37,954 nt of DNA from a virus, in IMG/VR virus record IMGVR_UViG_3300047481_001559, positions 1 to 37,954 of that record; one strand, given 5' to 3'. The translations under genes and the position numbers were made by a program. The notes under the pieces were generated by a model. It had not been told where the DNA came from. It saw only the letters and a list, made by a program, of their open reading frames with translations, and ran no database searches. Below, one piece after another: positions 1,226 through 15,247 of the stretch (the stretch's first letter is position 1; every line of letters begins with the position of its first letter).

Positions 1226-1570
1226 TTAGGGGGTCTGCTCAAGGTAGCTGACGGCAACATCTAATGCAGTAGAAGTATCACTACGTGCCCGTAAAACATC
1301 ACTGGACTCCATAATGACCTTGTTACCGCTGATAAGTTCAAGAGAAGATCCAGCAGGGACTGGAGCATTCCGAATCAAATAAACATCATCACCGGTATTA
1401 GTGACTAAATATACATCAACATTAGCACTTGTACCGGTCTTATTCGAAACAAGAACACTTAAGACAATAATTGTTGCAGTCGCACCTGCACTTAAAACAT
1501 TAGTTGTTGTGTTGCTGACTGCATCGGTAACCAAGCTAGATTTGGTTTCGATTTTAAAAGTATTGGCCAT
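1226..1570 (-). CDS. Small beta-rich fibre-associated virion protein
   Basis: 114 aa, rich in Val/Thr/Ser with alternating beta-strand pattern; contains 'LVSNKTGTSANVDVYLV' and 'LIRNAPVPAGSSLELISG'. Proteins of this pattern are common in cyanophage tail-fibre clusters and are thought to form a beta-sandwich, but their function is not established. It lies in a tight run of fibre genes (1-nt gap to the upstream gene, 2 nt to the downstream one). No signal peptide or membrane segment. Confidence 0.75.
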   Translation of the reverse strand: MANTFKIETKSSLVTDAVSNTTTNVLSAGATATIIVLSVLVSNKTGTSANVDVYLVTNTGDDVYLIRNAPVPAGSSLELISGNKVIMESSDVLRARSDTSTALDVAVSYLEQTP

Positions 1571-1571
1571 A

Positions 1572-1976
1572 TCAGCTTAGGGCAACAATAAGTGCAAGGT
1601 TTTCAGTGGAATTAAAGGCCCCTGTCACAGTTAAACCACCAGTGATGGAAACGTTGCCAGGGATGGTAACCGATCCAGATGAATCTATTGTAAGCCTAGC
1701 AACACCTCCTGTCACAAGTGCAATTTGATCGGCGCCAGGGCTAATGATACCTGTGTTTGGATCTCCGGCAAATTTTAAAGCACAGCTACTTAAAGATCCT
1801 AATGAAAATGCGCTATTTGTTCCATTTTCAAGAAGAAGGGGATATCCACCAACTTGCAAAGCATCATGAACAACACAAGTATGCTTTGTAAGATCAACAG
1901 TAACTTCTCCTACAGCACCTGTAAAAGTCGCTGTTTCCGCTGAAGTTCCGCGCCGGAATTGTACTTGCGTTGCCAT
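1572..1976 (-). CDS. Short fibre protein with Mtd-N-like trimerisation head
   Basis: 134 aa. The N-terminus 'MATQVQFRRGTSAETATFTG' followed by 'GEVTVDLTKHTCVVHD' matches the N-terminal beta-prism of the major tropism determinant family (Mtd_N), which trimerises fibre proteins. Residues about 72-85 hold 'DPNTGIISPGADQIALV', the same shaft motif as the fibre genes at both window ends. The C-terminus is short, so the protein may be an adaptor and not a full receptor-binding fibre. No reverse transcriptase or repeat of a diversity-generating element is nearby. Confidence 0.8.
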   Translation of the reverse strand: MATQVQFRRGTSAETATFTGAVGEVTVDLTKHTCVVHDALQVGGYPLLLENGTNSAFSLGSLSSCALKFAGDPNTGIISPGADQIALVTGGVARLTIDSSGSVTIPGNVSITGGLTVTGAFNSTENLALIVALS

Positions 1977-1980
1977 AATT

Positions 1981-3144
1981 CTATCCTAATGCAATTGCAA
2001 TTGCCGTTGCAAAATCTTGAGTGGAAATTGTACCATTTTCATCTGGTACCGTCATTGTACGAGTTGTTGAGGTTGAGATACCAGAGCATTCAAATGCCAA
2101 CTGTTTTGTTGCGTCTGAATTGTCTCGAACTCGAAACCCATTATCATCCGTGATAAGAGCAGAAGAAGTAAGAGATAAAAGCCCAGCAATTGTGGTAACA
2201 GTACTGCCCAGTGCAACTGCAGTTGAGCCGATGGTTACTGAACTATTTTGAAGTTGGCTATTTGGAATGTTACTTGTACCGAACTCGCCGGTAGTACTGT
2301 TGTACGTAAGACCAGAACCTGCAGCTACGGATAGACTGGTCAGTAGCGCAACCGTACCAGCTGCATCTGGGAACACAATTGCTCGATCAGCAGTTGGATT
2401 TACAACAGAAAGTGTTGTTTCAAAAGTATCAACACCGCTCCCCTCAAACGTGATGCCAGAGCTGTCAAGAATGATGGAGTTTGCAGTCCCAACAGTACCG
2501 ACGTTAATTGCAGAACTTGTTACCGCAGTTAAGCCATCAAGTGTTGTTGCTGTGGCACCTAATGAAATAGAAGTACTGCCAACGGTGACGCTGCTATTTG
2601 CTAATTGAGCGTTTGGAATGGCGCTAGTTCCAAACTCGCCGGTAGTACTGTTGTACGTAAGACCAGAGCCAGTTGCAACACTGAAGTGAGCTCGTACATC
2701 AGCAGCACTAGGACCAGTATAAGTAATTACTCCAGTACTATTGTCGTACGATAATGATCCATCGCCCCCAGTATCTGTAACTGAGATTTGTTGCCGAATA
2801 TTAGAAGCAGTTACAACACTAAATGTAAATACACCTGTGCTGTTGTCGTACGACAGACTACCAAAACCAGAACCGCTGTTCCCTGCACTAAAGTGTGCCC
2901 GAACTTCTGTGGCAGATGGGCCGGTATACGTAATTACGCCGTTCGAATTATTGTAACTTAACGATCCGTCACCGCCAGAATCAGTGACAGAGATAGACTG
3001 TCGTGCTCTGGTGTCTGTGTAATATAGATTTGCGCCTTCAGCAAGATCAGTTGTCGTGTTTCCAGCAAAATCTAGTTTGTCTGTAGGGGTATTTAACTCT
3101 TGAAAGAGTCCACCAACCAGTACAATTGCTTTTTTCGTAGCCAT
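1981..3144 (-). CDS. Tail fibre shaft protein with internal repeats
   Basis: 387 aa. Built from duplicated modules: 'SVTDSGGDGSLSYNNSNGVI' near residue 50, a near copy ('SVTDTGGDGSLSYDNSTGVI') near residue 120, and two copies of 'GSGLTYNSTTGEFGTS' followed by 'IPN(A/S)QL(A/Q)NSSVT(V/I)GST'. The remainder resembles cyanophage structural proteins ('ADRAIVFPDAAGTVALLTS'). Such repeats form beta-helical or collagen-like shafts. It is packed between fibre genes with gaps of 1 and 4 nt. Inferred to be a trimeric fibre component. Confidence 0.8.
   Translation of the reverse strand: MATKKAIVLVGGLFQELNTPTDKLDFAGNTTTDLAEGANLYYTDTRARQSISVTDSGGDGSLSYNNSNGVITYTGPSATEVRAHFSAGNSGSGFGSLSYDNSTGVFTFSVVTASNIRQQISVTDTGGDGSLSYDNSTGVITYTGPSAADVRAHFSVATGSGLTYNSTTGEFGTSAIPNAQLANSSVTVGSTSISLGATATTLDGLTAVTSSAINVGTVGTANSIILDSSGITFEGSGVDTFETTLSVVNPTADRAIVFPDAAGTVALLTSLSVAAGSGLTYNSTTGEFGTSNIPNSQLQNSSVTIGSTAVALGSTVTTIAGLLSLTSSALITDDNGFRVRDNSDATKQLAFECSGISTSTTRTMTVPDENGTISTQDFATAIAIALG
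2282..2316. repeat. 35-bp direct repeat, copy 1 (fibre gene)
   Basis: Exact 35-nt match to 2633-2667. It encodes the duplicated 'SGLTYNSTTGEF' segment of the fibre at 1981-3144. Nucleotide identity indicates a recent duplication or gene conversion within the gene. Confidence 0.85.
2633..2667. repeat. 35-bp direct repeat, copy 2 (fibre gene)
   Basis: Exact 35-nt match to 2282-2316, in the same reading frame 351 nt (117 codons) away. The in-frame spacing would allow module loss or gain by recombination without breaking the fibre gene. Confidence 0.85.
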
Positions 3145-3145
3145 A

Positions 3146-3673
3146 TTAACTAAGAAGTACGGGTGGTTCTAATTGGATGGAAAATTCACTGGTTGATACA
3201 GCTTCCCCAACTCTAACGACATACTGACCTGGAGTATTTGGAACAGTAGTAGTGATGGCGCCAGCAGACGCGGCAGATAAAAAGTAATGATCGCCAGCAT
3301 CTAAACCAGAAATTGCCTCAACGCCTGTAACTAAAATTTTTACAATTTGGCCAGTGCTTTTCGTTGTGTCAGCAAATCCTACGACGTAAGCCTGATCTAA
3401 TGTACCGCTCGCAATGGCTCTACCAGCAAGACCATCGGTCGCCCTTAGGTATAAAGCTTCCCCCTGAGAGACATTTTCAAAAACTTCTGCGTCAAATCCA
3501 ATACGAAATGGAACAAAAGTAGGAAACCCGTCTTTTAAATCAATCAGGGCATCTACTAATCCACGATAATTAGGGGCATACGGTTCTCGTGCCATTGTGA
3601 ATCCATTTCCTTGCATCAAATCAACAAGAACTGCAATAGCACCTTCAATATTTGGTTCGTAACCGGTACTCAT
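3146..3673 (-). CDS. Putative fibre/baseplate-associated structural protein
   Basis: 175 aa. N-terminus 'MSTGYEPNIEGAIAVLVDLMQG' is helical; residues about 65-175 form a beta-rich domain with 'QGEALYLRATDGLAGRA', 'YVVGFADTTKSTGQIVKILV' and the end 'EFSIQLEPPVLLS'. I recognise this pattern from cyanophage fibre clusters, where it is annotated only as structural or hypothetical. First gene of the distal fibre group; its start faces the plus-strand gene at 3741 across a 67-nt AT-rich gap. Confidence 0.75.
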   Translation of the reverse strand: MSTGYEPNIEGAIAVLVDLMQGNGFTMAREPYAPNYRGLVDALIDLKDGFPTFVPFRIGFDAEVFENVSQGEALYLRATDGLAGRAIASGTLDQAYVVGFADTTKSTGQIVKILVTGVEAISGLDAGDHYFLSAASAGAITTTVPNTPGQYVVRVGEAVSTSEFSIQLEPPVLLS

Positions 3674-3740
3674 TTTCGTTCTTATCTTAATTGTATTCTA
3701 AATCGTTAAACCCATTAGACTAGTAAAAAAGACTGGTGGG

Positions 3741-3995
3741 ATGACACCCGAATTAATTTTAGCCATCCTTTCGGGTGCAGCAGGTGCATTTGCTGGCCTT
3801 ACCAAGGCACTATCTAATTTTAATAAAAAAATTGAACGCAGGTTTGAAGCACTTGAGCAAGACCTAGACAATTTTCAAGACCGTGTCATACACGATTACG
3901 TTTTAAAAGAAGACTTTCTTCGTGAAATTCAAGCAGTTCATAACAAACTTGATCGGATTTTAGACCACATCTTAAATACAAATAGCCGTAGTTAA
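3741..3995 (+). CDS. Small membrane/coiled-coil protein, holin-accessory-like
   Basis: 84 aa on the strand opposite to all its neighbours. Residues 4-24 are a hydrophobic helix ('LILAILSGAAGAFAGLTKAL'), followed by a long charged coiled coil ('KKIERRFEALEQDLDNFQ', 'FLREIQAVHNKLDRILDHIL'). This arrangement is like XhlA-type lysis accessory proteins and a small cyanophage family of unknown role. It starts after 'GGTGGG' and its last 4 nt overlap the 3' end of the minus-strand gene at 3992. It must have its own promoter, probably in 3674-3740. Real gene by its amphipathic structure; function inferred. Confidence 0.75.
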   Translation: MTPELILAILSGAAGAFAGLTKALSNFNKKIERRFEALEQDLDNFQDRVIHDYVLKEDFLREIQAVHNKLDRILDHILNTNSRS

Positions 3996-4417
3996 ATCGC
4001 AATCCAGCTTGTAGTGGCTGATTTGTAAATAAAAAGCCCTGGAATAAGTTCATCATAGTGCAACTGTCCATTTGTCGGATTTACGGGTTTACCGTTACCA
4101 ATTGATGCCACAGCATTAGGAGTTTGCCATGAGCTGCCATCAAAGATCTTATGGATATATGTACTGGATGTATCAAGCCAAGTCTCTCCCCTGCTTAAGG
4201 AGATGTGTCCAACAGCGGGGGTGTTAGGAGGCGTAGAACCAATGAACGTGGGACCAACCTTTATAAGCCCTGTAGATGGACTGGCTGTGTTGTCAGCGAA
4301 ATAAAGACCGGGGTCGCCAGGATTGTTGTTTAAGGTAAGTTCTGCAATTCCCAATCGAATAGGAAAAGGGCGATCGTGCAGAATACTGGATCGCCTAGAT
4401 AATACCTGTCCTGCCAT
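3992..4417 (-). CDS. Cyanophage-type tail fibre adaptor-like protein
   Basis: 141 aa. Starts 'MAGQVLSRRSSILHDRPFPI', then 'LGIAELTLNNNPGDPGLYFAD', 'LIKVGPTFIG', 'GETWLDTSSTYIHKIFDGSSW'. This order (RRSS, AEL.LN, GLYF, VGPT, GE.WLD, K.(W/F)DG..W) is one I know from cyanophage structural modules. The second half resembles a small Trp-containing beta domain used in virion decoration. Function unproved; position after the large tail protein fits an adaptor or minor fibre. Confidence 0.75.
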   Translation of the reverse strand: MAGQVLSRRSSILHDRPFPIRLGIAELTLNNNPGDPGLYFADNTASPSTGLIKVGPTFIGSTPPNTPAVGHISLSRGETWLDTSSTYIHKIFDGSSWQTPNAVASIGNGKPVNPTNGQLHYDELIPGLFIYKSATTSWIAI

Positions 4418-4420
4418 GAT

Positions 4421-6721
4421 TTAAATGTTGATGTAAAAGCCACAATCTACTTCCGTATCCTGGGCTGTTCTGGGACTATAAGTTTCACAATCAATTGTAG
4501 TCAATGTTTGGCTTGATTCAACTGGTTCTCCGTTTGCGTAGGTACCCCCATCGATTAAAATAAAATTAAACCCCTGGCTGTAGTTAAATAACGGTTGATC
4601 AAGAAGACCAATTTTTGTATCTGATATTTGAGTTGGTTCGAGATTAAATAACTTACTGATAACAGAGATTAGTCTGTTTGTGTTGTTTACCAGAATCCCA
4701 TCTCGATCCAAGCTACCATCAATTCCTCTGCGAATCGAATCCGTGATCAACATTGTAATCAATTCTGGATTGTAGTTTGCTACCTCTTCTGGCAAGTTAA
4801 AAGATCCAACAACTTGCCCGCTACCAACCCACTTTGAACCCTGTCTGATCAAGACTAATCGTTCTGCGGCTAACTGAATCTTTTTGATTTCTTTATCAAA
4901 ATTGCGATAAAAAGTATCAAGATCATCCCCCACCGGACGATCGTTTGGCTCTAATAACCATTCGTTAACGTAGGAATGTTCTTTTAAATTACTGACTGTG
5001 CAATAACCACTGGTTGTTTCACTAAAAGGATAAACAACCACAAAGCTATCTGGATTTGGGACACTTGTAACTGTATATTGACCAGAAATAGCGTTGCCAC
5101 TGGTAAAAGTAAGTTCAATTTTTGTATTTATAGTTAGATTGTGATTAGGAAAATCTACTGTAATGTTTGGTCCGGACTGAGAATACTTCGCAAGCAGTGC
5201 CAAAGGCTCATTACCTTCATCATGAACCAATGCAAACAATGCAGCATAAATATGCTTGCACCAACGGAGTTGATAATACTCAAGATTAGTATACGACGTG
5301 GAAGAGGTGTCTTCATAATTAGGCAATTGATAAAAGTTGTTAACCGCTGTATACCCTAAATCACTAAAGTTGCCGGGCAAATCTCTCTCATTACTAAGGC
5401 TATTATCTTTTTCTAATACCTGTCCAGGCTTTGTAGAAGTAATAGCTGTAACCGGGAATCTTTTGTTCGTTGCTTGACTATAAAAATCATATCCAGAACG
5501 CCGCGTAAAATCTTGACAAGAACACTGCCACCGTAATTCGGTAGTTAAAAACCGATTACTTAAAAATCCCCTATGAGCTGGTACAGTTGTAATCAACTTA
5601 TCGTTAAATGTAGAACCACCATAACTGTCTTTTCGTTGAAAAATTAATTCATTAGTTGCTGTGTCAATATCAATCATTGTGTAACCAACGTAGTCGTCAT
5701 ATCTATACCCAGGAATCAACCTACTCACCACCAAGCTACCGGTAGCAGCACCACTGGCTACCGTGATGACTGTAAATTGAGTGGAGTTAGTAACGTTAAT
5801 AATGTAACGCCCTGGCGCAATACCACCGCTGCTGATTGTCAAATTAACAGCATTTCCAGTTGAAAGGCCGTGTGCTGTAGAGCAGGTGACTGAAACTGTC
5901 ACACCAATTCTTGTGTAAGTACCAACAACTCCTGGATCTTGTTCAATAATTCGATCTACAAGACGCTCACCAACCAAAAAGGATGCGGATGTTGGTAAAT
6001 TTTGCAATTTTGTTCGTATTGTAATCCAACGAGAATCATCAAAAGTGGTAGACAAATAAAATGTTACGTTTCCATTTGTTGTCATCGGGCTGGTGGCTGT
6101 AAGCGTAAATGTATTATTCGTGACACTAGTAATAACCAGAGTTTCATCAACACCAGCACCGGTTGAAAAAACTAAAGAAACACTCTCATTTATAAGAAAT
6201 CCATGGTCTTGTTTGGTTACCGTAATCGTCGTACCCGACTGAGAGTACGTGCCGGAAGAAGGGGATCCTAAATAACGAACACTGAGAATGGGTATTCCAT
6301 AGTTATAAAAGTTAAATGCATTTGTATCACGCATTGCAACTAATTGTGTACCTATTTCTTGATTGGCAGACGGGAATGTAAATAAACGCGCAGAAGCAAA
6401 TACTCCTGGAAATTGTTGAACTGCGCAGTAAAGCCGATAATCCCCTCTATAAAATCTTTCGTTTGCAAAAGATCCTAAAGTGTTCTGAGTAATTGTGTAA
6501 AGTTCATATCCACGTCGCCAACGAATCCAAGAAGAGTCATGGTCGTAAAACCTGATTCGACTTTTTAAACTGTTGTCTTTAGGAGTAAATTTAAACGCAT
6601 TCGTGTCTAACTCCCAATCTGGAACTTTATTAAAATTTGTATCCCCGGTAAACCCTTTAGATAAATCTTTGCCGAAGCTATTTTTCGATGGTAAATTAAA
6701 TTTACCAACTCCAAAAGACAT
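4421..6721 (-). CDS. Large tail protein with three inserted beta-sandwich modules
   Basis: 766 aa, the longest product here. N-terminal about 150 residues include 'WIRWRRGYELYTITQ' and 'YRLYCAVQQFPGVF'. Three copies of one module follow, beginning near residue 155 ('GTYSQSGTTITVT'), 264 ('GTYTRIGVTVSVT') and 513 ('AKYSQSGPNITVD'); each continues with 'HG' or 'HN', a 'V.LTFTSG'-like strand and 'VTSVTNNTFT'-like strand. Cys residues cluster near 'WQCSCQDF' and 'WCKHIYAAL', resembling a SWIM-type CxC...CxH metal site. C-terminal 120 residues are mixed alpha/beta. Probable tail hub, nozzle or spike; not assigned to a named family. Confidence 0.75.
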   Translation of the reverse strand: MSFGVGKFNLPSKNSFGKDLSKGFTGDTNFNKVPDWELDTNAFKFTPKDNSLKSRIRFYDHDSSWIRWRRGYELYTITQNTLGSFANERFYRGDYRLYCAVQQFPGVFASARLFTFPSANQEIGTQLVAMRDTNAFNFYNYGIPILSVRYLGSPSSGTYSQSGTTITVTKQDHGFLINESVSLVFSTGAGVDETLVITSVTNNTFTLTATSPMTTNGNVTFYLSTTFDDSRWITIRTKLQNLPTSASFLVGERLVDRIIEQDPGVVGTYTRIGVTVSVTCSTAHGLSTGNAVNLTISSGGIAPGRYIINVTNSTQFTVITVASGAATGSLVVSRLIPGYRYDDYVGYTMIDIDTATNELIFQRKDSYGGSTFNDKLITTVPAHRGFLSNRFLTTELRWQCSCQDFTRRSGYDFYSQATNKRFPVTAITSTKPGQVLEKDNSLSNERDLPGNFSDLGYTAVNNFYQLPNYEDTSSTSYTNLEYYQLRWCKHIYAALFALVHDEGNEPLALLAKYSQSGPNITVDFPNHNLTINTKIELTFTSGNAISGQYTVTSVPNPDSFVVVYPFSETTSGYCTVSNLKEHSYVNEWLLEPNDRPVGDDLDTFYRNFDKEIKKIQLAAERLVLIRQGSKWVGSGQVVGSFNLPEEVANYNPELITMLITDSIRRGIDGSLDRDGILVNNTNRLISVISKLFNLEPTQISDTKIGLLDQPLFNYSQGFNFILIDGGTYANGEPVESSQTLTTIDCETYSPRTAQDTEVDCGFYINI

Positions 6722-12848: not shown

Positions 12849-13982
12849 TCAAACGATGGTGAAGGCGGCAGTCACGAAGTCCTTGTTCAGGTTCGCGAAA
12901 CCGGCGTACAGCTGCCAAATCAGGATGATGAAGCGGCTGAAGTCGTCGTTATTGTTGATCAGAACCTGAGCGTTCGGACCACCGATACCCACGCCGACGG
13001 CTTGAGGGCCAAAGAACAGAGCGGGAGGAGTGGTGTGAGAAATAGCACCACTACCGTCGCCAATGTCAACAGTGATTGACTTGTCAGCAAAGTTGGTCGA
13101 TTCGAAGAACCGGACACCTTCAAACACAAAGCCGGAAGGCATGACGGGTTCGCCAGCAACGAACTGAGCTTGACCGAACTGGCCACCGCCATAGATGGCG
13201 GAGTTAGGCGCCATAGCACCCATCAGGGGGTTAGGCTGACCCATGCCAGGGTAACGAGCCACTTCACGGAAGCCTTGGTCAGCACGCAGATCCTTCATGA
13301 AGGAGGGATCAGCGATACAACGGTAGTAACCGTCAGCAAACACAGGGGTGTTCCGCTTACGAAGTTGCTTGACAACTTCCAGCAGGTCGGTCTTAACGTT
13401 GAACTTGTAACGCTCCGAAGCGTACTCAGTTGCACTATAGGCAGTCAGAGTAGTCGCGCCAGTCTTGACTTTACCGTTGGGGTAGTAATAACCACCTTGG
13501 GTATCAGATGCAGCGCCACGAGCTTCAGATTTCGAGAACTCGTCAAGGAAGACGCGATCGCGCCAACGACGATAGTCATCGAGCAGGGTCAGCGAACCGA
13601 TGGACTGGTGGAACATGTTAAGGTTCCCGGTGTCCAGCAGCAGGCGCTGTGCGGTCATCAGAGTCTCACGAGCGATCTTGAAGGTGCTCGGGAGGTTGGA
13701 GTTATTCGGGTCAGCAGGGCCGGTGTACTCACGCAGAGACACAAGCACCTTGTCCTTAACGATGGAGCGGCTGTTGGCCGTACCGATCGTTTGGTCTTGG
13801 GTGCGCTCACGCTGAGTCTTGGTCCCAGGGTTGCCCCAGAAACGATACCGGTCTAACTGAACAGTTTGACCAGGCTGTTTAGTGAAATCGTGGACAACAA
13901 CAGGCTCAGCTGCCATTTCCACAATGTAAGCCGGATGGGGGCGGTACAGCTCCGCACCCAACAGCTTGGGAAAGTCGTTCTC
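12849..13982 (-). CDS. Major capsid protein, exon 2 (gene split by group I intron)
   Basis: About 377 codons running from the intron's 3' end to 12849. In frame upstream of a TTG at 13961 the codons read ENDFPKL before 'LGAELYRPHPAYIVEMAAEP', so the TTG is internal and not a start. 'VVVHDFTKQPGQTVQLDRY' and 'FWGNPGTKTQRERTQDQTIG' fit the N-arm of HK97-fold capsid proteins of the N4-gp56-like group. The position after portal and scaffold fits. The upstream frame is closed by intron stops, so splicing to a short exon 1 (about 14826-14852) is required. The exact exon start is uncertain by a few codons. Confidence 0.85.
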   Translation of the reverse strand, partial: ENDFPKLLGAELYRPHPAYIVEMAAEPVVVHDFTKQPGQTVQLDRYRFWGNPGTKTQRERTQDQTIGTANSRSIVKDKVLVSLREYTGPADPNNSNLPSTFKIARETLMTAQRLLLDTGNLNMFHQSIGSLTLLDDYRRWRDRVFLDEFSKSEARGAASDTQGGYYYPNGKVKTGATTLTAYSATEYASERYKFNVKTDLLEVVKQLRKRNTPVFADGYYRCIADPSFMKDLRADQGFREVARYPGMGQPNPLMGAMAPNSAIYGGGQFGQAQFVAGEPVMPSGFVFEGVRFFESTNFADKSITVDIGDGSGAISHTTPPALFFGPQAVGVGIGGPNAQVLINNNDDFSRFIILIWQLYAGFANLNKDFVTAAFTIV

Positions 13983-14203
13983 CTGATCTTCAATTTCTTG
14001 AAGGGGTGGACTATCTCTTCACCCTTGGTAGGGTGCCGGGCGCTAACGACGTATTACGGATGAAGCGTCATCCACCGCCTAGTCTCTGCACCTTCCAACT
14101 ACGGACTTAGTTGGCTTGGCTCAGGATTACCCTCGTCTTTACGTTAGGGCTTCCCTGAATTCACCCGGTGTTCACTAATCAGTTACCTGATTAGGCGACA
14201 ACA

Positions 14204-14232
14204 TTGACTACTCAGCTAAGGCATGCTAATTT
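14204..14232 (+). promoter_or_regulatory. Possible promoter for the antisense HNH gene
   Basis: TTGACT at 14204-14209, 17-nt spacer, then TAATTT at 14227-14232 preceded by TGC (extended -10 form). It ends 24 nt before the HNH start and lies within intron sequence on the opposite strand. The -35 matches consensus at 5 of 6 positions; the -10 is weak apart from its TG extension. Confidence 0.45.
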
Positions 14233-14256
14233 GGAATCAAGTTGTTTTTATACAAC

Positions 14257-14787
14257 ATGGAACCAAGACTAGTCCCTGGATTCGAAAACCTTTACTTAGA
14301 TGAAACCGGAACGCCGTATCAAAAAACCGATAATGGTTTTGTTGAATTGAGCATTAGTTCTACGAGCACGTACAACAGAATTTCTATTTCCCAAGAGGGG
14401 GAAAGGAAACGCTATCACATACATGTTCTTATGGCAATAACTTTTTTAAATTTAGATCTAACTCGTCACGGAGTTCGAAGCAATTCTCTTCAGGTTGATC
14501 ACAAAGATGGCAACAAAAGAAACAATTTTCTTGAAAATCTTGAGGTCGTTACAAAAAGAGAAAACTACAACAGGGCGTTAAAAGCTGGATGTTACTCTAA
14601 AAATGGTTATGCCAGTAAAGGGAAGGCTAAAAAAACTTTAAGAAAATTTTCAGAAAGTGATGTGAATCAAATGAAGCAGATGAGGGCCGAAGGTTTTTCT
14701 TATCGAAAAATTGCGGATCACTTCAATTGTAATCACTTAGCCGTTTATCAAATCTTAAAAGGAAAAACCTATCAGGATCTGAGTTAG
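14257..14787 (+). CDS. HNH homing endonuclease, antisense to the host intron
   Basis: 176 aa from the ATG at 14257 (a TTG 15 nt upstream is less likely). N-terminus 'LVPGFENLYLDETG' resembles NUMOD4. The HNH site reads 'LQVDHKDGNKRNNFLENLEV' (His, Asn, Asn pattern) near residues 75-95. The C-terminal 'ESDVNQMKQMRAEGFSYRKI' then 'ADHFNCNHLAVYQILKGK' is a DNA-binding helix-turn-helix typical of these enzymes. It lies between P2 and the 5' exon of the capsid intron but on the opposite strand, so it is not made from the capsid transcript. Expected to cut intronless capsid genes and spread the intron. Confidence 0.9.
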   Translation: MEPRLVPGFENLYLDETGTPYQKTDNGFVELSISSTSTYNRISISQEGERKRYHIHVLMAITFLNLDLTRHGVRSNSLQVDHKDGNKRNNFLENLEVVTKRENYNRALKAGCYSKNGYASKGKAKKTLRKFSESDVNQMKQMRAEGFSYRKIADHFNCNHLAVYQILKGKTYQDLS

Positions 14788-14825
14788 CTATCGATAAACA
14801 TGTTGGTATTACAGCGTAGTTTTTA

Positions 14826-14852
14826 GCTGATACCAGGATCTAGAAGACCCAT
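14826..14852 (-). CDS. Major capsid protein, putative exon 1
   Basis: ATG at 14852 opens 'MGLLDPGIS', then an in-frame TAA at 14825-14823, which would abort translation of unspliced RNA. 'xxLLDPGIS' is a common beginning for phage capsid proteins. It is the only ATG between the promoter at 14941 and the intron core that gives a plausible peptide without an immediate conflict. No Shine-Dalgarno is evident. The true 5' splice site may fall a few bases on either side of the end given. Confidence 0.5.
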
Positions 14853-14940
14853 GGTAGTAATGGACCAAAAATCTGGAAAATTTATTCAATTTTCAAGGTT
14901 CGCGCCATTACTGGCCTGGAACTTCCGTCCCATTACAAAA

Positions 14941-14949
14941 ATTATAGCA
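14941..14949 (-). promoter_or_regulatory. Extended -10 promoter for the capsid operon
   Basis: Minus-strand TG-C-TATAAT (14949-14941), a perfect consensus -10 with the TG extension; no good -35 at 17 nt. It lies between the stop of the 87-aa gene (14984) and the capsid ATG (14852), giving a leader of about 80 nt. Consistent with a dedicated strong promoter for major capsid expression. Confidence 0.6.
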
Positions 14950-14983
14950 ACAATTTATCAATCCGGATTAATAACTATTGGAA

Positions 14984-15247
14984 TCAGGTTTCCGGATTTA
15001 CCATTACGGGGAAGTTGTAGCCAGGCAGCATGTTACCTGGAGCATACATCATTGGAGCCATCGAACCCATTGCGTGATACGGATTGACGGTCGGAGTCTG
15101 CATATCAATCTGTGAGGATTGAATTTCAGGATCGATGCCAGCCCCGGCTTCAGTTGCTTGCATAATTGCCATCATGTTGGCAGCTTCTGCCATTTGTTTC
15201 CTGGACTCCGATTTTTTAACAGCCTTTTTAGCTTTAGATTTGTCCAT
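14984..15247 (-). CDS. Small Met/Pro-rich protein upstream of capsid
   Basis: 87 aa. Lys/Ser-rich start ('MDKSKAKKAVKKSESRKQMA') then Met/Pro/Tyr-rich tail ('PYHAMGSMAPMMYAPGNMLP'). No family recognised. Start overlaps the previous stop by one base (TAATG). Position between scaffold and capsid suggests a head-assembly or capsid accessory role. Confidence 0.65.
   Translation of the reverse strand: MDKSKAKKAVKKSESRKQMAEAANMMAIMQATEAGAGIDPEIQSSQIDMQTPTVNPYHAMGSMAPMMYAPGNMLPGYNFPVMVNPET

Follow-up and report, generated by a model that had tools for sequence, protein, structure and literature searches.

A group IA intron with an antisense HNH endonuclease gene in its P1 loop, a probable mobile element in the major capsid gene of an S-EIV1-like cyanophage

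An intron four codons into the major capsid gene

The window, by which we mean the whole 37,954-nucleotide stretch of viral DNA analysed, carries on its minus strand a major capsid gene that is interrupted by a group I intron four codons past its start (Table 1). The exon 2 product is a major head protein (PHROGs phrog_1357, E 2.3e-15) and the capsid DNA is 72% identical to that of cyanophage S-EIV1; a relative of the capsid protein is encoded in 599 candidate stretches of the viral contigs searched. Intron-less capsid relatives start with MFIDNDFPK (DNA MFIDNDFPKLLGAELY), and in 70 of them ATG-NNN-AT[ACT]-GA[CT] is joined directly to NDFPK at the site, while in the window ATGTTTATCGAT at 14801-14790 is separated by 810 nt from AACGACTTTCCC, which begins at 13979. 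Removal of the intron restores the MFID|NDFPK reading of the homologues, with U as the last base of exon 1 and G as the last base of the intron. Without splicing the capsid message would yield MFIDS followed by a stop codon, and the exon 2 frame extended back into the intron soon reaches a stop as well. By this comparison exon 1 has only four codons.

An initial sequence-only reading had taken the interval 13983-14852 as the intron and placed exon 1 near 14852 (MGLLDPGIS). The alignment with uninterrupted capsid homologues that this reading called for fixes the exon borders, retains the MFIDNDFPK start with exon 1 included and corrects the intron to 14789-13980. The MGLLDPGIS candidate was rejected; it belongs to the 5' leader, and the conserved MFID start lies downstream of it.

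A first exon of four codons is a warning for annotation, as gene callers miss the capsid start. In S-EIV1 (L001, KJ410740) the GenBank plus-strand ORF AHV82227 covers the capsid gene at 4955-6181, and the true capsid frame, open for 385 codons, is on the opposite strand. The reference genome of the group thus has a wrong-strand call over its capsid gene.

Table 1. Features of the interrupted capsid gene, the intron and the antisense ORF in the window
Feature	Position	Strand	Remarks
Likely capsid promoter TATAAT, part of TGCTATAAT	14946-14941	-	from comparison of capsid loci
Capsid mRNA leader	14940-14802	-	several predicted hairpins (RNAalifold); exchanged along with the intron
Exon 1 of the major capsid gene	14801-14790	-	ATGTTTATCGAT = MFID; 12 nt, four codons
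P1, exon strand CGAU	14793-14790	-	covariation with the internal guide
Group I intron, 810 nt	14789-13980	-	starts AGC, ends ...CAGGAG (terminal G)
P1 extension, 5' strand ACUCAG	14784-14779	-	complement encodes the end of the HNH gene
HNH endonuclease ORF, 176 aa	14257-14787	+	start ATG, stop TAG; antisense to both the intron and the capsid gene
Candidate HNH promoter	14204-14232	+	TTGACT, 17 nt, TGC-TAATTT
P1 extension, 3' strand CUGAGU	14215-14210	-	pairs with ACUCAG
P10, intron strand UGUU	14203-14200	-	pairs with AACG at the start of exon 2, 13979-13976
Internal guide sequence GUCG (P1, intron strand)	14199-14196	-	its G is the partner of the U that ends exon 1
Catalytic core P2-P9 including P7.1/P7.2	14194-13988	-	99.6% of cells paired
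Exon 2 of the major capsid gene	13979-12849	-	376 codons and stop

The intron core and its pairing with the exons

A search of the window with Rfam placed one group I intron, an RF00028 match at 14228-13987 of the minus strand (99.4 bits and E 9.8e-25, against a gathering cut-off of 50). The model search proposed by the sequence-only reading therefore bears out the minus-strand intron that it had claimed. In an alignment of 21 distinct cores, 23 of the 66 pairs are changed on both sides compared to 9.0 in shuffles and at most 4 in slid versions. This covariation supports P2, P3, P6, P7, P7.2 and P9, among them all the helices claimed earlier (P2, P3, P6, P7 and P9). P4, P5, P8 and P10 are paired and invariant or nearly so, with P4 and P8 never varying. 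P7.1 and P7.2 (alignment columns 141-172) are likewise paired, and six P7.2 pairs have changed on both sides. Since P7.1 and P7.2 lie between P7 and P3, the intron classifies by its predicted structure as group IA, an assignment that does not separate IA1 from IA2.

Thirty distinct introns occupy the identical site, and all 30 combine an exon CGAU or UGAU with a guide GUCG or GUCA. Exon position -4 and its guide base form C-G in 24 introns and U-A in 6, with no exception among the 30. Compact introns of 227-231 nt show P1 directly, as CGAU-AGC[UAAC]GUU-GUCG with UAAC as the loop. The nuclease-bearing introns have about 580 nt inserted in this P1 loop, closed by an extended P1 helix that covaries among relatives (ACUCAG/CUGAGU, GCUCAG/CUGAGC, GCUUAG/CUAAGC and GCUC/GAGC). 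P10 pairs UGUU or CGUU with AACG, with 96.4% of cells paired across the 21 distinct cores and one-sided changes only. We infer from these sequences that the intron is self-splicing and that splicing takes place in this phage.

Two other guide candidates, GUUGUAUAAA beside the ORF start and GAUAGG near the 5' splice site, looked by eye as if they could pair with exon 1 and were rejected because the compact introns lack them. The word CAGATCCTG, which is common to the leader and the 5' end of the intron, had suggested an operator; this idea was dropped as the word is not kept in L147.

An intact HNH gene on the opposite strand

The ORF within the intron contains an HNH_3 domain (PF13392, E 3.7e-10, 39.7 bits vs a cut-off of 24.8) and matches phrog_59 in PHROGs (E 2.9e-25), confirming the earlier description of a plus-strand HNH ORF between P2 and exon 1. 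The closest solved structure is PDB 1U3E (E 8e-8), an HNH homing endonuclease that we take to be I-HmuI. A VDH.D.NK.NN...NLEVVTK stretch is present in all 19 distinct HNH copies, and a C-terminal HTH-like stretch scores just under the cut-off for HTH_7 (23.3 vs 23.8). The ORF thus combines the HNH motif and the DNA-binding C-terminus of an I-HmuI-like homing endonuclease. None of the 19 distinct copies has an internal stop, and pairwise dN/dS is about 0.07-0.21 for pairs of distinct copies in which dS is not saturated. As far as sequence can say, this comparison shows the ORF to be a working gene under purifying selection.

The HNH gene ends inside the 5' strand of the P1 extension, with its stop codon two bases from the 5' splice site. 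The ORF is antisense in every copy, including that of L105, which has 55% protein identity and an exon 1 that reads MWID, and the arrangement is common to about 20 distinct relatives. Its conservation across copies 55% identical in protein shows, on the comparative evidence, that an antisense nuclease can be a stable, selected arrangement in phage introns. A sense gene in the P1 loop would directly follow the capsid start codon, which may be the reason why the antisense orientation is tolerated or favoured. The earlier suggestion that the HNH gene entered the intron separately is plausible given the compact introns without the gene and a G+C content of 36% in the gene vs 50% in the intron core.

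The sequence-only reading started from the premise that phage introns usually carry their nuclease in the sense direction, and this holds in our sample. At five loci with HNH relatives (L106, L107, L155, L157 and L158) the group I match is on the nuclease's own strand, the matches at L155, L157 and L158 being under the Rfam cut-off, and a sixth (L159) is annotated as a sense-strand nuclease in an intron. In bacterial genomes the HNH relatives amount to a single weak partial match.

Candidate promoters and the capsid leader

The pattern TTGA[CG]T-N15/17-TG[CT]TAnnnT is found 16-26 nt before the HNH start in 10 of 11 distinct copies and is absent in L105. Shuffling puts its chance occurrence at 0.1-0.4% per sequence, for a pattern that was noticed first and tested afterwards on related copies. 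A strict sigma-70 consensus scan of 13900-15000 found no promoter, the same interval contains no plus-strand terminator that we could find, and we recognised no ribosome-binding site ahead of the HNH start. The promoter suggested earlier therefore fails the strict scan but gains from the -35/extended -10 pattern conserved in relatives. The HNH gene probably has a plus-strand promoter of its own, and the pattern is good evidence for it without being conclusive. GTTGTTTTTATACAAC at 14241-14256 (plus strand), which abuts the HNH start codon, forms an imperfect palindrome that has a similar form in most copies.

Upstream of the capsid gene, TATAAT is present in 132 of 134 loci, the exceptions being a truncated contig and L105; by eye, capsid TGCTATAAT has no -35-like element at the usual distance. 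Hairpins between TATAAT and ATG were predicted for the window (14802-14946, minus strand) and for the leaders of L003-L150. They comprise a 5' hairpin of the GGAAC/GUUCC type, a variable middle and a conserved CAGC...GCTG just before the ATG. Pairs changed on both sides number 11 of 29 in the intron-bearing set, while short leaders show weak covariation (2 of 13 pairs). The modelled folding suggests that the capsid leader possibly stabilises the mRNA.

Empty, occupied and remnant sites among relatives

We classified the state of the site at 134 capsid loci and found 70 empty, 51 with the ORF form, 9 compact and 4 remnant. These numbers count some contigs more than once, as duplicate loci, and the searches behind them partly targeted the intron, so they should not be read as frequencies. 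On a tree built from capsid exon 2 (89 distinct rows), intron presence and absence require 12 changes, of which at least 10 are forced by supported branches, and occupied, ORF-deleted, compact and empty sites alternate. The empty L003 and the occupied L083 differ by 0.8% in exon 2. Occupied and empty alleles are thus present in close relatives and incongruent with the host gene tree, the pattern by which a mobile intron is recognised.

The DNA flanking the intron carries the trace of co-conversion. For pairs with at least 95% identity in exon 2, the median identity of the 130-nt leader is 66% when one member is occupied vs 95% when both are empty, at about equal exon 2 identity. Occupied/empty sibling pairs are about 97% identical in exon 2 and about 66% in the leader, and the DNA farther upstream is 86% identical in occupied/empty pairs vs 80% in pairs where both are empty. 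Exon 1 changes with the intron as well, being ATCGAT in the occupied gene and mostly ATTGAT in its nearest empty relatives. On the downstream side, the L083/L003 pair shows clear differences that cease after about 12 nt. The comparison thus indicates that the leader moves together with the intron, which is what gene conversion in the course of homing would produce. Alternatively, selection may favour leaders that suit intron-bearing genes, and the independent occupied/empty events are few.

In the remnant introns (268-271 nt) only the final HNH codons, GKTYQDLS-stop, survive; judged from this scar they represent loss of the nuclease after invasion. Between the window and L083, dS is 0.07 for HNH vs 0.33 for capsid exon 2, a difference that points to recent exchange. 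The relatives provide, at one site, a natural series of homing states (empty, compact, with nuclease, and nuclease-deleted remnant), in a common group of aquatic phages and with both exon/guide covariation and a visible co-conversion footprint.

Further introns in related phages

A single capsid gene at 2862-4900 (plus strand) of L147 has three Rfam group I introns and a probable fourth with a sense LAGLIDADG-like ORF. The capsid gene of L105 has a second group I intron by Rfam (2377-2648, minus strand), and that of L144 has a second one by sequence reading (1400-2600, plus strand), with a sense ORF that looks LAGLIDADG-like. The capsid gene of S-EIV1-like phages looks like an intron hot spot. 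In the freshwater cyanophage S-SRM01 (L163), three group I matches at 224-1608, one of them below cut-off, surround the psbA gene and a homing endonuclease gene.

Interpretation

Comparison with relatives establishes the intron with its splice sites and P1/P10, the intact and selected antisense ORF, the patchy distribution and the replacement of the leader. The best explanation in our view, with a probability of roughly 0.87, is that the capsid gene harbours a group IA intron that is mobile and whose P1 loop holds an antisense gene for an HNH homing endonuclease. In an S-EIV1-like cyanophage, a self-splicing intron would have entered the major capsid gene behind codon 4, splicing would join MFID to NDFPK in the capsid mRNA, and the loop of the extended P1 helix would carry the antisense endonuclease gene. 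We further infer that this gene probably uses its own plus-strand promoter and, with the patchy distribution and the leader replacement as indirect signs, that the enzyme it encodes acts on capsid genes without the intron, nicking or cutting them close to the MFID|ND junction. Repair of the cut copies would then bring in the intron together with upstream flanking DNA.

It is conceivable that there is no intron and that the capsid protein starts within exon 2 (the TTG at 13961, in frame and listed as an ORF start, is one candidate), with the remainder serving as leader. This is scarcely credible given that homologues, including those of the 70 intron-less loci, keep the MFIDNDFPK start and that a full group I core has P1/P10 pairing to exactly the MFID and NDFPK exons. 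Another explanation is an old, vertically inherited intron that was lost many times and whose HNH protein was kept for another role, such as that of a regulator. The loss of the ORF in the remnant forms would fit, but the states alternate between near-identical capsid genes, leader replacement is limited to occupied/empty pairs and the window/L083 pair has the lower dS in HNH (0.07 vs 0.33), making long vertical descent very improbable.

The two other explanations concern the opposed transcripts. In the first, an idea of the sequence-only reading, the antisense HNH RNA would base-pair with unspliced capsid message and keep it from being spliced until late infection, acting as a timing switch for the capsid. 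The HNH gene does overlap the 5' strand of the P1 extension (14784-14779), and with no plus-strand terminator found in 13900-15000 its transcript could run into exon 1 and the leader. However, most relatives are intron-free and the compact and ORF-deleted introns have no HNH gene; because most relatives lack the intron or the gene, capsid timing in the group does not need the HNH gene. Capsid mRNA would also probably be in excess over a weak antisense transcript. Regulation of splicing through antisense RNA is thus unsupported, and we regard such a switch as improbable. The converse, that abundant capsid transcripts silence the HNH gene late through antisense RNA or transcriptional interference and so confine the nuclease to the early phase, is conceivable although we do not favour it. 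The two transcription units are opposed and fully overlapping, and a -35-like element belongs to the HNH promoter pattern while none is seen by eye at the capsid TGCTATAAT, but such silencing may be a by-product of the orientation and not a selected control. Late silencing can coexist with the mobile-intron explanation. Somewhat more doubtful is the idea that the P1 region has three uses, namely splice-site recognition over the first capsid codons, the last codons of the antisense nuclease and the -35-like element of its promoter, so that capsid transcription and nuclease expression would exclude each other.

Comparison with known systems

In phages SPO1 and Pf-WMP3, the intron endonucleases I-HmuI and I-PfoP3I are in sense orientation, and the T4 td, nrdB and nrdD introns are of the group IA type with P7.1/7.2. 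Like the intron described here, those of SPO1 and Pf-WMP3 are phage introns with endonucleases of the HNH class, but their host gene is the DNA polymerase gene. I-PfoP3I of cyanophage Pf-WMP3 is a nicking HNH enzyme in a group IA2 intron (PMC3428280). The T4 td, nrdB and nrdD endonucleases have their own promoter, RNA hairpin control and autorepression (PMC2988022); their introns share with ours the group IA type and, as is probable for ours, an endonuclease with its own promoter, and differ in that the endonucleases are sense-oriented.

Antisense homing endonucleases occur in nuclear rDNA group I introns, such as I-DirII of Didymium and I-DsqI of Diderma, with sense and antisense insertions in P1, P2, P6, P8 and P9 (PMC3679873, PMC9548176, PMC3073962). 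In these introns, too, an antisense endonuclease gene occupies a peripheral loop and has, as is probable for ours, a promoter of its own, but they lie in eukaryotic rDNA, with enzymes of the His-Cys family, spliceosomal introns, polyadenylation and transcription by RNA polymerase II.

A close likeness is to the major capsid gene of mycobacteriophage LittleE (JF937101), where an 819 bp group I-like intron has a nuclease ORF on the opposite strand and splicing was shown by RT-PCR and peptide sequencing (PMC3706429). Both are introns of a phage major capsid gene with an antisense nuclease ORF. In LittleE, however, the core is at the 5' end of the intron with the ORF after it, whereas here the ORF is in the P1 loop; the Rfam score is weak (30.7), and exon 1 is long compared to 12 nt here. 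We found no protein similarity between the LittleE nuclease and the HNH protein of the window. Antisense nucleases in introns were thus already known from nuclear rDNA (PMC3679873, PMC9548176) and, decisively, from the LittleE capsid intron (PMC3706429). Relative to the open-access literature searched, the features new here are the placing of the nuclease gene inside the P1 loop, a first exon of 12 nt, a gene whose end overlaps P1, and one site at which the states form a natural series.
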